Shown one piece after another: positions 6,296-15,422 of a DNA stretch of 64,000 nucleotides. The DNA is taken from positions 1-64,000 of the forward strand of contig CAMFLR010000013.1 in the NCBI GenBank assembly GCA_945957605.1. The letters run 5' to 3'. Source of the DNA: an uncultured Isosphaeraceae bacterium. GTDB taxonomy: Bacteria > Planctomycetota > Planctomycetia > Isosphaerales > Isosphaeraceae. The position numbers were made by a program, and so were the translations under genes. Positions within the stretch are counted from its first letter, which is position 1, and every line of letters begins with the position of its first letter. The notes under the pieces are model-generated. The model did not search any database, was not told the origin of the DNA, and was given only the letters and a program-made list of their open reading frames with translations.

Positions 6296-6807
6296 ATGAC
6301 ATCAAAACGTATCTTCGACGAAGAAGGTCACGCTCATTTTGTGACCTATTCGTGTTATCGAAGACGTCGTTTGCTCGATCACGATCGGTCCAAGAAAGTT
6401 GTGCTTGGTGTGCTTCGCTCCCAGTTGTCGAAACAATCGGGACGATGTGTTGGCTTTGTGATCATGCTCGATCATGTTCATGCGATTGTTTGGTTTCCGG
6501 AAGCCAATCAACTTTCTCATTTCATGAAACAGTGGAAGCAGCGGAGTTCTTTCCAGATCAAGAGGCTGGCTCAGGACGTATTGTTAGAATATTATTCGCA
6601 TGTTGATCTGGCAGAGTCTTTCTGGCAGGCTGGGTATTATGGATTTAACTTGTTCGCTGAAGAAAAAACTGAGGAAAACTGACCTACACGCATCAGAATC
6701 CTGTAAAGGCTGGCTTGGTTGATCGGCCTTGCGACTGGCCGTGGAGTTCGGCTCGATATTACGAACAGGGTGGGAGCGTGGGGGTTCCGATTGGCTGGTT
6801 GGAATAG
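6296..6807 (+). pseudogene. REP-associated tyrosine transposase (IS200-like, RAYT), frameshifted
   Basis: The open frame runs 6296-6682 (128 residues). It starts in family style (HFVTYSCYRRRRLL) and holds the HUH metal-binding motif in GFVIMLDHVHAIVW and the catalytic-tyrosine region FWQAGYYGFNLF. It then hits TGA at 6680-6682. The rest of the family's C-terminus continues in the -1 frame from about 6676 to TAG at 6805-6807: [17 protein letters not shown], then [12 protein letters not shown]. Loss of one A from the A-run at 6675-6678 explains the break. RAYTs are single-copy domesticated relatives of IS200/IS605 transposases that act on REP-type hairpins. This gene is flanked directly by hairpin elements (6134-6249 and 6808-6853), which supports the assignment. 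It may be inactive, or the missing base may be a sequencing error. Confidence 0.88.
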
Positions 6808-9013: not shown

Positions 9014-10036
9014 ATGGCCACAGTCGCGGAAACGTCTCTGGGCTGGGAAACCGAAGCCGATGGCATCGCGTTTGCGCGCGAAGTCTTACGCATCGAGGCC
9101 AACGCCCTCATTCAGGTGCGAGATCGCGTCGACGAGTCGATCGCTCGCGCGGCCGAGGTGATTTTTCGCTCGCGCGGAAGTGTCATCGTCACAGGTATGG
9201 GCAAGGCAGGGATCGTCGGCCAGAAGCTTGCGGCGACACTGTCGTCGACCGGCACCGCCGCGTTTCCGCTCCATCCTGGCGAGGCTGTCCACGGCGACCT
9301 TGGTCGAGTTCGCGCCGGCGATGTGGTGATCGTGCTGTCGCAAAGCGGCGAGACCGAAGAGGTTTTGCGGTTGTTGCCCTCGATCCATCGGCTTGGCGTG
9401 ACATTGATTGCGATCACCGCGCGGGGGGAAAGCTCGCTCGGCAAGGCGGCGGATTTGTGCCTGTTGCTGGGGCCGATCGAGGAGGCGTGTCCGCTCGGTT
9501 TGGCACCATCGGCCAGCACAACGGCCATGATGGCTCTGGGAGATGCACTCGCACTGCTCGTCAGTCGCTTACGAGATTTCCGCGCGGAAGACTTTGCGAT
9601 GAATCATCCGGCAGGAGCGCTTGGCAAGCGGCTGAATCGCGTGGAAGACGTGATGCGGTCGGGCAAGCGGTTTCGCGTGGCGCATGTGGAACGCACGGTT
9701 CGCGACGTTTTCGTGAGCTTTGCGGGACCTCGGCGACGATCGGGTGCGGTGCTGCTTGTGGATGACAGCGGGCGGCTCGTGGGGATTTTTACCGACTCCG
9801 ACCTCGCGCGTCTCTTCGAACAAAGGCGCGACGCGATGCTTGATCAGCCAATTCGCGACGTGATGACGGCCGACCCAGTGCAGGTGACGGTTGGCTCTCC
9901 GGTGGCGATGGCGGTCGACGCGATGCGCGAGCGGAAAATCAGCGAGCTGCCGGTGGTGGATCGTGCGGGAAGTCCCGTCGGCCTGATCGACCTGACCGAC
10001 CTGATCGGCCTTGTTCCGGCTGAGGCCGAGGAGTAG
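9014..10036 (+). CDS. kdsD: Arabinose-5-phosphate isomerase (KdsD/KpsF family)
   Basis: 340 residues. It interconverts D-ribulose 5-phosphate and D-arabinose 5-phosphate, the first committed step toward KDO for lipopolysaccharide. An N-terminal SIS domain (about 30-190) has VIVTGMGKAGIVGQKLAATL and the sugar-phosphate loop VLSQSGETEEVLRLLPS, plus LAPSASTTAMMALGDALA. The linker NHPAGALGKRL is typical of the family. Two CBS motifs follow (about 205-340). The ATG at 9014 is fixed by AAGGAGG 7 bases upstream; the longer open frame starting at 8891 lacks such a site. The kdsC gene starts 3 bases after this stop, so the two are almost certainly cotranscribed. This supports a real KDO pathway. Confidence 0.93.
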   Translation: MATVAETSLGWETEADGIAFAREVLRIEANALIQVRDRVDESIARAAEVIFRSRGSVIVTGMGKAGIVGQKLAATLSSTGTAAFPLHPGEAVHGDLGRVRAGDVVIVLSQSGETEEVLRLLPSIHRLGVTLIAITARGESSLGKAADLCLLLGPIEEACPLGLAPSASTTAMMALGDALALLVSRLRDFRAEDFAMNHPAGALGKRLNRVEDVMRSGKRFRVAHVERTVRDVFVSFAGPRRRSGAVLLVDDSGRLVGIFTDSDLARLFEQRRDAMLDQPIRDVMTADPVQVTVGSPVAMAVDAMRERKISELPVVDRAGSPVGLIDLTDLIGLVPAEAEE

Positions 10037-10039
10037 ACC

Positions 10040-10591
10040 ATGCCCGCTCCGCCCAAATCACTGCTCGACCTGGCCGACCGCTGCTCCGCGATCGAGTTGC
10101 TGCTCGTGGACGTCGATGGCGTACTGACCGACGGCGTTATCGCGATTGACGACAAAGGGATCGAGACGAAGCATTTTCACGTCCGCGATGGGAGTGCGTT
10201 CCACCTCTGGAAGAAGGCCGGCAAGCGCGCGGCGATTCTTTCGGGTCGGTGGGCGCCGCTGGTCGATCGACGCGCAGCTGAACTGGGAATCGCGCCTGTA
10301 ATTCAGGGTGCGCCTCAGAAAGGCGGACCGTTTCGGGCCTTGTTGCGCGACCTGGGACTCGACCCGAAGCAGGTGTGTTACGTGGGCGACGACCTGGCCG
10401 ACTTGCCAGTTTTGAACGCGGTCGGCTTGGCATGTTGCCCGGCGGATGCTGCTCCGGAAGTTCGCGAGTCGGTGCAGCTTGTCACGAACCAGCCAGGTGG
10501 GCGCGGGGCGATTCGAGAGATTGTTGAAGTCATTCTCAAGCACCAGGGTGTTTGGGACGAGATAGTCGATCGCTACCGGGTGCCGGCTTGA
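10040..10591 (+). CDS. kdsC: 3-deoxy-D-manno-octulosonate-8-phosphate phosphatase (KdsC, HAD family)
   Basis: 183 residues. It hydrolyses KDO 8-phosphate to KDO and phosphate in the cytoplasm. HAD motif I is LLLVDVDGVLTDG near residues 21-33, with the Asp nucleophile and acid/base Asp. Motif II is the Ser in AAILSGRWAP, motif III the Lys in QGAPQKGG, and motif IV is CYVGDDLADLPVL. The small capless C0 layout and length match KdsC. The start lies 3 bases after the kdsD stop codon. Together with kdsD and the following LptC/LptA-like gene, it forms an outer-membrane lipopolysaccharide module. Confidence 0.93.
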   Translation: MPAPPKSLLDLADRCSAIELLLVDVDGVLTDGVIAIDDKGIETKHFHVRDGSAFHLWKKAGKRAAILSGRWAPLVDRRAAELGIAPVIQGAPQKGGPFRALLRDLGLDPKQVCYVGDDLADLPVLNAVGLACCPADAAPEVRESVQLVTNQPGGRGAIREIVEVILKHQGVWDEIVDRYRVPA

Positions 10592-10847
10592 GAAAAATTG
10601 CCGTCTCGAGGCTGTAAAAGGTGATATTTTCAATTGAAGGGATATGCAATGCGTCGCAATTCTGGCGGTTACACACGGCGAGCTTGCCGGTTGAGTTGAC
10701 TCTGCGGGATAGCTCGCTGCGATCAGCACGCGAAATTACGTTTGGCATGACATTGGCTTGATAGCGACGTACACGGATCGAACAGCCTGAGGGATCTGGC
10801 GGCTGGTCGAATCGGTAAGCGAATAAGGTTCAACGGCGGGAGTGGTT

Positions 10848-13800
10848 GTGTTCAAGAAAGCGTTGCAAATCGTCGTGACGTTGGGAATGCTGCTGGGAGG
10901 CTACCAGGTCTACCTTGTCGCCTTCGCCATGCTGACCGACCGCATTGGCGCGGCGCCCACTCTGCCACCCGAATGGAAGCAAATCGAGTCGCGCACCTCG
11001 CGCGAAGCGAGGCGTCTGGCCATTGAATCGTTCGGCGCCGATCACTGGACGGCCAAGCCCGATCTGAGAATTCGCTTTTATGATGCCGCACGCGGATTCT
11101 ACATGTATGCAGGTGATTACACGCGACTGGAAGACGGCAAGAAGTTCGAGTTCTTTCCGTTTGCAATTATCTGGCTCTCGAAGGGCGGAGCAGCGCGCAA
11201 GCTCGCCACGAGCGATCGCGCGACGGTCGAGCTGAATGAAAAGCTCGGCCTGGGTAAGTCTGAACAGGCGATCCATGTCATTGAAGCACGCCTGGAACAG
11301 CAGGTTGTGATTCGCGACGACAAGGGGACGTTGCTCGACCCGAGCGACGACCTTGTGGTCGGTCCCCTGCCCGACATCAAGTACTCGGAAAAGACCAAGC
11401 CGGCCGTCATCAGCAGCGTGAACAACATCAAGATTGTCGACCGCAACCTGATGATCACCGGATATGACTTGCTGATCGAACTTCGCGACGCCGACGCTCG
11501 CGACAAGTCGCAAACCGGCTTCGATGCGCAAATGGCGCGGTTGAAGACGAACACGCATATTGCTGTGAAAGACGTCGGAAAATCAGGCGTTTTGCCGGGC
11601 ACCTCGCGTAGCACGACCAAGACCGAAGATCCAACTCCGCTCGACCTGCGCAGCGACGGCGAAATGCGCATCGACTTCCCGCCCAAGCCCAAGCCTTTGC
11701 GGCCGATGTTTGTTGGTCCGCCCGAACCCGAAGGACCAACGTACGCGACATTCCAGCGCAATGTGGTGGTCGAGCGCGGGAAGGAATTGCTCAAAGACAT
11801 TCTCAATTGCGACACCTTGCGGCTGACGCTTTTGCCCGCGCCCAAATCGCTTACGCTCGAACCGCGGTTTGGTGCCGGTGTGGTTGTGATGGGTGTTCAT
11901 TCGGCAGCGCCGGGCGCGGCGGGAGTTTGGCCGCGATATGGCAATAGCGATTCGTCTGGTCCGCTTACCGAGCTGGCGATTCGCGAGGCGAATGCGACCG
12001 GTTTTGCCGTGTGGCTTACCTCGACGGCGCAAGGCATTCGAGCGAAATGCAACGAGCTGATCTACAAAAAGCAGATGCCCGTTTCCGAGGATGAGACTTA
12101 TCTTCGCGGAACGCTTACGACGCCGATTGAGGTGGTCAAAACCGATCACGAAGCACCTGCGCCGAATGCCGGCAAGGTGACGTCGGTCACCTCGATCTGG
12201 GCCCTCGACGCCAAGATTTTTGACGACGGCAAGGGTGGTTCGGCGTCGACGGTACGATCGCGCGGTCCTGGCCGGCTCGAGACGCGCCCCGCGCTCGATC
12301 AGCCCGCCGAGCATGGTGCGACGTGGCAGACCGAACTCGTCATGCAGACGATTCCGATGCCGGCCGATCGCAATGCCGATCCCAAGGCACCCGTTCCGGT
12401 GCGACGACTGATCACGCTGACCGGCGACCCCAAGCTGCAAGACTTCGTCAAGGCGATGAAGCTCGAAGCAAAGCAGAAGGTGGTGGCGAGCCTCAAACCG
12501 CGTGACAAGTCGGACGAGCCGGTGAACGAGAAGCAGGCTGAGGCCGATCGTGGTTTCGCAGCGGCTGGCGTTCCTCCTGCGAAGGAGAAAGATCCGCTCG
12601 GCTCGGGCTCGTATCAGATCGAATGGATCCAGGCGAAGGAAAACGTGCGGCTGACGTCGCCGGGCAAGACGATGATCGCCCGCGACGAATTGAACGCGCC
12701 GTTCGAGCATGTGGCTGCGCTCGCGAATGAACCGGCCAGCCCGGTGCGCGACGATCCGGCCGGTGGTCCCAAGACCGCGGCAAACGCCGAGCTGCCCAAG
12801 CCGGATGGTCCTGCGTTTGGCACAGGTCAGCCCGCCAATGCCGACACCAAGGGCAAGCCGCCCGCCAATGCGGTTGCGTCGAACATCAAGCCGGAAAAGC
12901 CGGCTGAGCCGAATGTTGAAGTGACGGCGCATCGCGTTTGGGCGAAGATTCGTCAGGCGAACGGTAAGTCGGAAATCGCCGAGGCCCGCCTGCGTGGCGA
13001 GGTGAAGTTCCATCAAGACGCCGCGCCGGACAAGAAGCGTCCCACGAACGTGACGGGCGAAGCGCTTGACCTCGAGACGATGGCAAGTGGCAAGATGAAG
13101 TTCCGCCTGTTCAACACCGATCCGTCTGCGCTTGCTGATTCGAACCGCTTGGCGGCGAACGGTAACATCAGACTCTCGCCGATTCTTCCCGCTCGCATCG
13201 AAACCGAAGATTACACGATCATTGGCCCGGCGATTTACCTCGACCAGTCGCTCGACTACGCCTGGGTGAACGGTCGCGGCAGCTTGACGCAGCTTGCCGA
13301 TCGCGGATTCCTGAGCGACAAGGGAGTTCAGGATTTCGTTCGCGAACAGAATCGCAAGAAGACGCTGCAGATCGCTCAAAACAACCCAGGCGAGAAGAAG
13401 CCGTCTGACAAGATTCCGTTCATCATTAGCTGGGCCGACCAGATGCAATTCTTCGGCCGTGCGACCGATCCGCAAGGTCGCCCCGCCGGCAAGATGGTGT
13501 TCCGCGGCGACGTTAATGCTCGAATGGAAGACGGCTTCATTCATGCCGACGAGATCGACGCATACACCGATCGCCCCGTTTCGCTGGCTCAACCGAAGAA
13601 GCAGACTTCGACGCCGCTTAACGTTGGCAGCGACACCCGGAAGATCGACGAGATTCTCCCCGTCGCCGCCAATCGACCGATTGGCGTGAACGGCGAAGAT
13701 GTGCCGATGGCTGCGTTCGGCAAGGACGGCGACGACAAGCCCGAGATGTCGTACATCGAGGCGCGAAGCAAGCCCAAGCCCAAGGGCTATGGCACCGTTG

Positions 13801-14717
13801 CACGAAACGTGAAGCGCGACCCAGAAACGGGCGAGCATATCGAAAACCAGTATATTTCTGGCGATGTGCTTACGTACGACCGCCGTTCGGGTGATTACCG
13901 CATCCCCGGCAAGGGTGAGGTTTATCTCTGGCGTCGTAGCGCTGAGGGTGAAGCCAAAAAGGATGCCAATCCGCTGGGCGGCGGCGGGCTGGTGCCGACG
14001 GCTGGTCGCACCCGGCCGGTTTCCAATGCCACTGGCGGCACCGTCGCGAAGGGTGCGAAGGGCCCGAAGAAGACGTACACGCCGTGGGAACTGACCCAGA
14101 TCCGATTTGAAGAGAGGATGCAGGGTCGGTTTGGTTCCGGCAAGAGCGACGCCGACAACGAGTGGCGTACGGCCGACTTCTTCGGCGCGGTTCAGGTGCT
14201 GAACGCCCCCGTCTCCAAAGAAGGCTCCGCCTTCAACTTCGACGACCATCCGCCCGACTTCAAGCGCATGACGGCCGACTCGCTACGCGTGGCCTCCGAG
14301 CCGCCCGATCCCAACAACAAGGGTGCATCGGCGCAAACGCTTGTAACAGCCGAGAAGGACGCACAGGCAACGACCAGAACGCATACCGTTGCGGCGGATA
14401 TCATCAAGTATGATTCCGATAAGCAGATGTTCCATGCGTACGGTTTGGGCGGTCGCCAGGTTACGATCGTGAACCAGGCTCGCACGGGTCAGCAAGCGAC
14501 AACGGTGAATGCCGAAGCCGCTGAATACAACTACAAGACGGGTGAATCGAAGGCGGTGAACGCCAGCTCGATTCAGCTTCTGGAGCCGAACGGCGGGATT
14601 CGACCGGTCGAAGAGAAACCGGCTGGGCCAGCGCCGAAGGCCAAGAGAAATCAGCGGCCGAATTTGCGTCCGCCGCCGCGTGGACATATTGAACGCCGAG
14701 GGTTCGGCGGGCACTAA
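10848..14717 (+). CDS. Giant LptC/LptA (OstA)-like envelope protein
   Basis: About 1289 residues. A GTG start at 10848 is preferred because GGGAG lies 5 bases upstream; another GTG at 10842 is in frame. One transmembrane helix near residues 5-25 resembles the LptC anchor. The rest is beta-rich, with recurring OstA-like strand patterns: YATFQRNVVVERGKELL (about 299), IQAKENVRLTSPGKTMIARD (about 593), AEARLRGEVKFHQD (about 710), KMVFRGDVNARMEDGFIHAD (about 883) and FFGAVQVLNAP ... MTADSLRVAS (about 1113-1150). Low-complexity Pro/Ala/Lys linkers separate them. E. coli LptC and LptA are each under 200 residues. Position directly after kdsD-kdsC and the repeated OstA-like modules suggest a single-chain periplasmic lipopolysaccharide bridge. 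This is inference; LptB/F/G/D are not in the window. Confidence 0.7.
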   Translation: MFKKALQIVVTLGMLLGGYQVYLVAFAMLTDRIGAAPTLPPEWKQIESRTSREARRLAIESFGADHWTAKPDLRIRFYDAARGFYMYAGDYTRLEDGKKFEFFPFAIIWLSKGGAARKLATSDRATVELNEKLGLGKSEQAIHVIEARLEQQVVIRDDKGTLLDPSDDLVVGPLPDIKYSEKTKPAVISSVNNIKIVDRNLMITGYDLLIELRDADARDKSQTGFDAQMARLKTNTHIAVKDVGKSGVLPGTSRSTTKTEDPTPLDLRSDGEMRIDFPPKPKPLRPMFVGPPEPEGPTYATFQRNVVVERGKELLKDILNCDTLRLTLLPAPKSLTLEPRFGAGVVVMGVHSAAPGAAGVWPRYGNSDSSGPLTELAIREANATGFAVWLTSTAQGIRAKCNELIYKKQMPVSEDETYLRGTLTTPIEVVKTDHEAPAPNAGKVTSVTSIWALDAKIFDDGKGGSASTVRSRGPGRLETRPALDQPAEHGATWQTELVMQTIPMPADRNADPKAPVPVRRLITLTGDPKLQDFVKAMKLEAKQKVVASLKPRDKSDEPVNEKQAEADRGFAAAGVPPAKEKDPLGSGSYQIEWIQAKENVRLTSPGKTMIARDELNAPFEHVAALANEPASPVRDDPAGGPKTAANAELPKPDGPAFGTGQPANADTKGKPPANAVASNIKPEKPAEPNVEVTAHRVWAKIRQANGKSEIAEARLRGEVKFHQDAAPDKKRPTNVTGEALDLETMASGKMKFRLFNTDPSALADSNRLAANGNIRLSPILPARIETEDYTIIGPAIYLDQSLDYAWVNGRGSLTQLADRGFLSDKGVQDFVREQNRKKTLQIAQNNPGEKKPSDKIPFIISWADQMQFFGRATDPQGRPAGKMVFRGDVNARMEDGFIHADEIDAYTDRPVSLAQPKKQTSTPLNVGSDTRKIDEILPVAANRPIGVNGEDVPMAAFGKDGDDKPEMSYIEARSKPKPKGYGTVARNVKRDPETGEHIENQYISGDVLTYDRRSGDYRIPGKGEVYLWRRSAEGEAKKDANPLGGGGLVPTAGRTRPVSNATGGTVAKGAKGPKKTYTPWELTQIRFEERMQGRFGSGKSDADNEWRTADFFGAVQVLNAPVSKEGSAFNFDDHPPDFKRMTADSLRVASEPPDPNNKGASAQTLVTAEKDAQATTRTHTVAADIIKYDSDKQMFHAYGLGGRQVTIVNQARTGQQATTVNAEAAEYNYKTGESKAVNASSIQLLEPNGGIRPVEEKPAGPAPKAKRNQRPNLRPPPRGHIERRGFGGH

Positions 14718-14751
14718 CTCCTGGCCGGCTCCGTTGTGGTAAATTGATCAG

Positions 14752-14806
14752 TTCGATCCCACCTCGTTTCTTACGACGATTCGAGGTGGGATCGAATCGC
14801 TTTTCT
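14752..14806 (+). terminator. Intrinsic terminator after the LptC/LptA-like gene
   Basis: TTCGATCCCACCTCG (14752-14766) pairs perfectly with CGAGGTGGGATCGAA (14782-14796), a 15-bp stem with a 15-nt loop. It is followed by TCGCTTTTCTT. It lies 35 bases past the stop codon at 14717, so it closes the kdsD-kdsC-lpt transcription unit. Confidence 0.85.
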
Positions 14807-14855: not shown

Positions 14856-15422
14856 ATGATTAGCATTCCCCCTTTTCCGCCTCTTGAGTGGGATACTTAT
14901 TCTTGGTTAGGTGAAGTCGTCCTCAGCTCGTGGGCAGGGTTCCAAACGCGGCGTAGTTCGTATGGAGCGACTAGCTCGCAGGACGAATCCGATGGAAGCG
15001 CTGAACTTCATGTTGCAGCAATCGACAAAAAAAAGCGTACGCCACCTTCGCCGGAACAGTGTAGCGCGTTCCAGTTTTTGCTCGACAACGAACAGGCCGT
15101 TACTAATGCGATCTTGAGGGAGATTTTCCGTCGCTATCCGGAAGAACAAAAGGCGTATGGCTACAGTCGGAAAGAGGCCGCCAAGTACATGCCCAATCTA
15201 ACGAGCGCGGATCAATTAAGGTTGCTAATAGGTTTAGGGCACGTTCACATGCTGAATGTTGCGAAGGATGGACTCGCGTATATTGGGTTCCAGATTGGGT
15301 GCAAGTGGGACGATGATCATGGTGTTGGTGTGATGACGCACCGCGATCGTATTGTTCGCGTTGGCGGAGCAGATACTTCGTTTCTTGAGTGGATTGCTCA
15401 GGAAGACGCCAAGGCGAAATGA
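14856..15422 (+). CDS. DUF6985-like small cytosolic protein
   Basis: 188 residues with no signal peptide or membrane segment. The opening FPPLEWDTYSWLGEVVLSSW followed by PPSPEQCSAFQFLLDNEQAV and a charged C-terminal half fits the DUF6985 pattern, a family often seen among immunity-like proteins. The assignment is by remembered pattern and is tentative. GAGGG lies upstream of the ATG at 14856. The gene starts after the strong terminator at 14752-14806, so it has its own promoter. No toxin gene is adjacent. Confidence 0.62.
   Translation: MISIPPFPPLEWDTYSWLGEVVLSSWAGFQTRRSSYGATSSQDESDGSAELHVAAIDKKKRTPPSPEQCSAFQFLLDNEQAVTNAILREIFRRYPEEQKAYGYSRKEAAKYMPNLTSADQLRLLIGLGHVHMLNVAKDGLAYIGFQIGCKWDDDHGVGVMTHRDRIVRVGGADTSFLEWIAQEDAKAK

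Follow-up and report, generated by a model that had tools for sequence, protein, structure and literature searches.

The giant protein encoded behind the KDO synthesis genes kdsD and kdsC in the window (the whole 64,000-nt stretch of the uncultured Isosphaeraceae genome analysed here) is very probably LptC and LptA naturally fused into one chain. The basis for this reading was computed: it comprises the homology of two of the four ordered blocks of the protein (I and III), the fold of two (I and IV), the conservation of the gene, the gene order, and the presence of LptB, LptF, LptG and LptD in the same genome. In E. coli the genes are ordered kdsD-kdsC-lptC-lptA-lptB. The slot of lptC plus lptA is kept in the planctomycete order and filled by one gene, while lptB lies elsewhere. 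As the planctomycete order thus matches the kdsD-kdsC-lptC-lptA of Proteobacteria, a fused LptC-LptA is the best reading of the giant.

A single gene behind kdsD and kdsC

The identity of the two upstream genes is supported by matches of the kdsD product to TIGR00393 (257 bits, cut-off 204) and to the Pfam SIS and CBS domains (9.4e-24 and 4.2e-19), and of the kdsC product to TIGR01670 (148 bits, cut-off 107). They lie 3 bases apart (10036 to 10040), as the sequence-only reading had it, and a further 256 nt separate kdsC from the giant frame, whose claimed length of 1289 residues holds with the GTG at 10848 as the best start. The same reading had the unit end in a 15-bp terminator: the inverted repeat is perfect and followed by a weak T run, but a terminator role is only possible, as terminator-like sites were not in excess in a consensus scan of the region around the giant gene. 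A promoter scan of this region gave results at chance level. Further upstream, a small ORF at 6296-6682 of the window resembles, by eye, a REP-associated (Y1-type) transposase.

Features of the kdsD-kdsC-giant locus (window positions; residues are those of the giant protein)
Feature	Coordinates	Strand	Description
kdsD	9014..10036	+	KpsF/GutQ-family arabinose-5-phosphate isomerase, SIS and two CBS domains, 340 aa, ATG at 9014
kdsC	10040..10591	+	KDO-8-phosphate phosphatase, 183 aa
Likely ribosome-binding site	10836..10842	+	GCGGGAG, 5 nt 5' of GTG 10848, predicted from sequence
Giant LptC-LptA-like protein	10848..14717	+	1289 aa, GTG start
N-terminal hydrophobic helix	10851..10943	+	residues 2-32, presumed inner-membrane anchor
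Block I	11070..11837	+	~residues 75-330, LptC-like beta-jellyroll
Block II	11973..12710	+	~residues 376-621, all-beta (AlphaFold strands; homology to L068), probable LptA-type module
Block III	12915..13568	+	~residues 690-907, all-beta OstA-like module (hhalign to anammox-type OstA region)
Block IV	13746..14558	+	~residues 967-1237, LptA-like beta-jellyroll
Inverted repeat, possible terminator	14752..14796	+	perfect 15 bp, arms 14752-14766 and 14782-14796, 15-nt loop
DUF6985 protein gene	14856-15422		next gene after the giant

The host genome (8.84 Mb) belongs to an order whose 45 genomes all fall into one family, the named relatives being Isosphaeraceae such as Singulisphaera and Aquisphaera. 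We found the giant in 43 of the 45 at ~32-60% identity, mostly as frames of 1200-1580 aa on contigs of sufficient length, and with kdsD upstream at every locus reaching far enough. Such conservation of sequence and position indicates that the giant ORF is not a chance frame. In most loci kdsC lies between the two; none was detected there in L024/L045, L027/L052 and L051. The giant was not matched in two genomes of the order, G014 (92% complete) and G026 (77% complete). In two Singulisphaera-type genomes (G038:C5:5123856-5125208 and G037:C1:132777-133412) its N-terminal part is present a second time as an incomplete copy, with a TGA in one of these frames.

Homology and fold of the giant

With single-sequence HMMER searches, the window protein scores 10.2 bits against LptD_N (PF03968), far below the Pfam cut-off of 20.4. 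Across 24 members of the giant family, LptD_N matches five (best 1.6e-4; the one from G025 exceeds the cut-off, at 21.4 bits) and LptC (PF06835) matches three (best E 0.0032), and these are the two best-represented of the 24,736 Pfam families scanned. When PDB sequences were compared with the giant profile, the only match at E <=10 was an LptA (E 0.099). Clearer matches come from another Planctomycetia family, two genomes of which encode proteins of 997-1028 aa directly behind kdsD with LptD_N scores of 32.9 and 23.4 bits, which exceed the cut-off. When four such ~1000-aa Planctomycetia homologues were made into a profile, it could be aligned to the giants across 983 columns (hhalign E 3e-56).

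In families f45 and f76, which we label anammox-type by inference, and in related lineages, the slot behind kdsD-kdsC is occupied by one chain of 635-665 aa (loci L109, L110 and L112) with an N-terminal helix, an LptC match of 60-68 bits, which exceeds the Pfam cut-off, and LptD_N matches of 75-93 bits in 2-4 stretches. This chain and the Isosphaeraceae giant profile match with E 1e-7. Taken separately, blocks I and III align with the anammox-type fused protein at E 3.3e-8 and 8e-8 (reversed controls 0.14 and 0.18), block III on its OstA region and with a second placement (E 6e-6), and blocks II and IV give weak hhalign matches to the anammox-type profiles (E 0.002 and 0.03). Block II is probably an LptA-type module, judging by its homologue in L068, of the same class, in which the best LptD_N stretch covers residues 267-397. 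A single chain with LptC-like and LptA-like modules recurs across several Planctomycetota lineages. Behind the fused gene, the anammox-type loci have a conserved gene of ~610-670 aa (L109:3920-5746, L110:5816-7828, L112:5858-7687), the start of whose product resembles, by eye, a glycerophosphodiester phosphodiesterase, and then a gene resembling, again by eye, a uroporphyrinogen methyltransferase.

The main AlphaFold2 model (residues 45-1244, 19 sequences) is all-beta, with a mean pLDDT of 72 and a pTM of 0.54, and has disordered stretches near residues 334-373, 627-684, 916-962 and 1035-1073. The sequence-only reading had counted at least five OstA-like segments, which is too many or unproven: the model has about four ordered beta blocks with disordered linkers, and two of them have an Lpt fold match. 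Residues 1-336 modelled alone reach a pLDDT of 75 and a pTM of 0.74, and the top 16 rows of the fold search with this model are all Lpt proteins (LptD, LptC, LptA and LptF/G chains), LptC having a Foldseek probability of 1.00. Block I superposes on LptC 6mit_C with Z 8.7 (3.9 A over 136 residues) and on 4b54_B with Z 8.5 (122/125 residues); these Z values are moderately above the tool's level for unrelated matches and were thus weighed together with the sequence evidence. The LptC-like N-terminus proposed earlier is borne out by this fold together with the LptC matches in relatives. Block IV superposes on LptH 4uu4 (Z 13.0, 2.5 A over 118) and on LptA 2r19_B (Z 12.9, 2.7 A over 133). In the proposed comparison by structure prediction, one end of an all-beta chain falls on LptC and the other on LptA. 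Long Foldseek alignments of the giant to LptD, teneurin and DDB1 were disregarded, as their rmsd was 27-50 A. At the very N-terminus, AlphaFold helices at residues 2-17 and 19-32 are of low confidence, and the hydropathy maximum is 1.8 within ~residues 1-28, which is moderately hydrophobic. LptA has ~160 mature residues, and the ordered residues of the giant amount to several such units.

Weighing against the fusion are the Pfam scores of the window protein, which stay below the cut-offs, the weak sequence matches of blocks II and IV, the pTM of 0.54 with four long disordered stretches, and the low-confidence, moderately hydrophobic anchor.

Partners, rival readings and a possible mechanism

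The remaining Lpt components are encoded elsewhere in the host genome. The LptF and LptG genes are adjacent to each other, and one LptB exceeds the curated cut-off (334 bits). It is the product of a lone gene (L065:8039-9013, 324 aa), exceeds the 239-position model by ~80 aa, and its gene adjoins two signal-peptidase-like genes. The Pfam LptD models PF04453 and PF19838 gave nothing useful in the genome; a profile of planctomycete LptD candidates detected an LptD-like protein of 1301 aa at L108:2722-6627 (E 5e-79), which contains an extended Pro-rich insert and escapes the Pfam LptD models. An LptD_N match at C5:35670 (L001) was rejected as chance (E 0.47, in a frame unlike an Lpt protein in sequence).

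No separate LptA or LptC was detected in the host genome with the Pfam models, but the same models also miss the giant itself over cut-off, so that the absence of separate proteins is unproven. A small, highly diverged LptA could have escaped in the same way, and small LptA-like proteins do occur in some Planctomycetota (a 207-aa frame in G124 and a 190-aa frame in G072). The giant could then be an extended LptC that still needs such an LptA to reach LptD. We consider this unlikely, as its C-terminal block already superposes on LptA, its length is that of several LptA molecules, and both domains are found in full in the kdsD-kdsC-linked single chains of the anammox-type genomes. That the giant is some other periplasmic lipid bridge, of the AsmA/TamB or bridge-like lipid transfer type and carrying phospholipids rather than LPS, is highly improbable: a long all-beta chain with an N-terminal helix is typical of that class and Foldseek did return the LPD-3 bridge-like lipid transfer complex (E 2.5e-5, probability 0.69), but the sequence profiles lead to LptC and LptD_N and to none of the AsmA/TamB families, the best-aligned folds at low rmsd are Lpt proteins, and the gene is linked to KDO genes.

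As a fused LptC-LptA, the giant would be anchored in the inner membrane by its N-terminal helix, with the block I jellyroll sitting on LptB2FG, as LptC does. The later jellyroll blocks would take the role of the E. coli LptA polymers as a periplasmic slide, with the last of them docking on the N-terminal jellyroll of LptD, and LPS expelled by LptB2FG would travel along a hydrophobic groove. These docking partners, LPS as the cargo, the continuity of the groove and a length sufficient to span are what we infer for the giant. It is possible, if on balance somewhat doubtful, that the LPS bridge of Planctomycetota in general is one covalent chain of fixed length from LptB2FG to LptD, made without LptA polymerisation and with its length set by the gene, from ~650 to 1300+ residues depending on lineage. 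A link between the length of the giant and the enlarged planctomycete periplasm is weak, since the enlargement varies between cells and is caused by invagination of the inner membrane (PMC5394234), and since the anammox-type chains are half as long.

It has long been asked how many LptA units an LPS bridge contains and whether it is a stable or a transient structure. In a bridge made naturally of one chain, both stoichiometry and order would be fixed, and chain length could be compared with the width of the periplasm in different lineages; what is elsewhere built from pieces may in planctomycetes be a single molecule. The giant would also supply a missing part of the LPS pathway of planctomycetes, as the main genomic survey found for this group used LptD as the LPS marker and left LptA and LptC unmentioned (PMC3422733).

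Comparison with known Lpt systems

No description of an LptC-LptA fusion was found in the freely accessible literature searched, and a prior description in subscription papers is possible. Lpt genes have been catalogued by profile search, and the passages of that catalogue consulted describe no fusion (PMC8871954). The term 'LptCA' was rejected as a report of one, being shorthand for the E. coli gene pair.

The Lpt cluster of diderm Firmicutes resembles the giant in that divergent OstA-domain proteins have been proposed as LptA and LptC, but these are two unfused proteins of ~200 aa (PMC5007114). LptD shares the LptD_N fold through its N-terminal jellyroll and stands high in the fold lists; unlike LptD, the giant gave no sign of an outer-membrane barrel when searched by sequence, and a separate LptD of 1301 aa is encoded elsewhere. 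With LptC and LptA/LptH of E. coli and Pseudomonas the giant has in common an N-terminal anchor and jellyroll (LptC), further jellyroll (LptA), the slot behind kdsD-kdsC and the presence of the partners LptB, LptF, LptG and LptD. It differs from them in being one chain of 1289 aa with long disordered inserts rather than two proteins of ~190 aa, in that LptA polymerisation would in principle be unneeded, and in the location of lptB elsewhere in the genome. The 635-665-aa chain of the anammox-type and related lineages is half as long as the giant, with clear Pfam domains and little insert, but has both the gene order and the fused domain plan in common with it.
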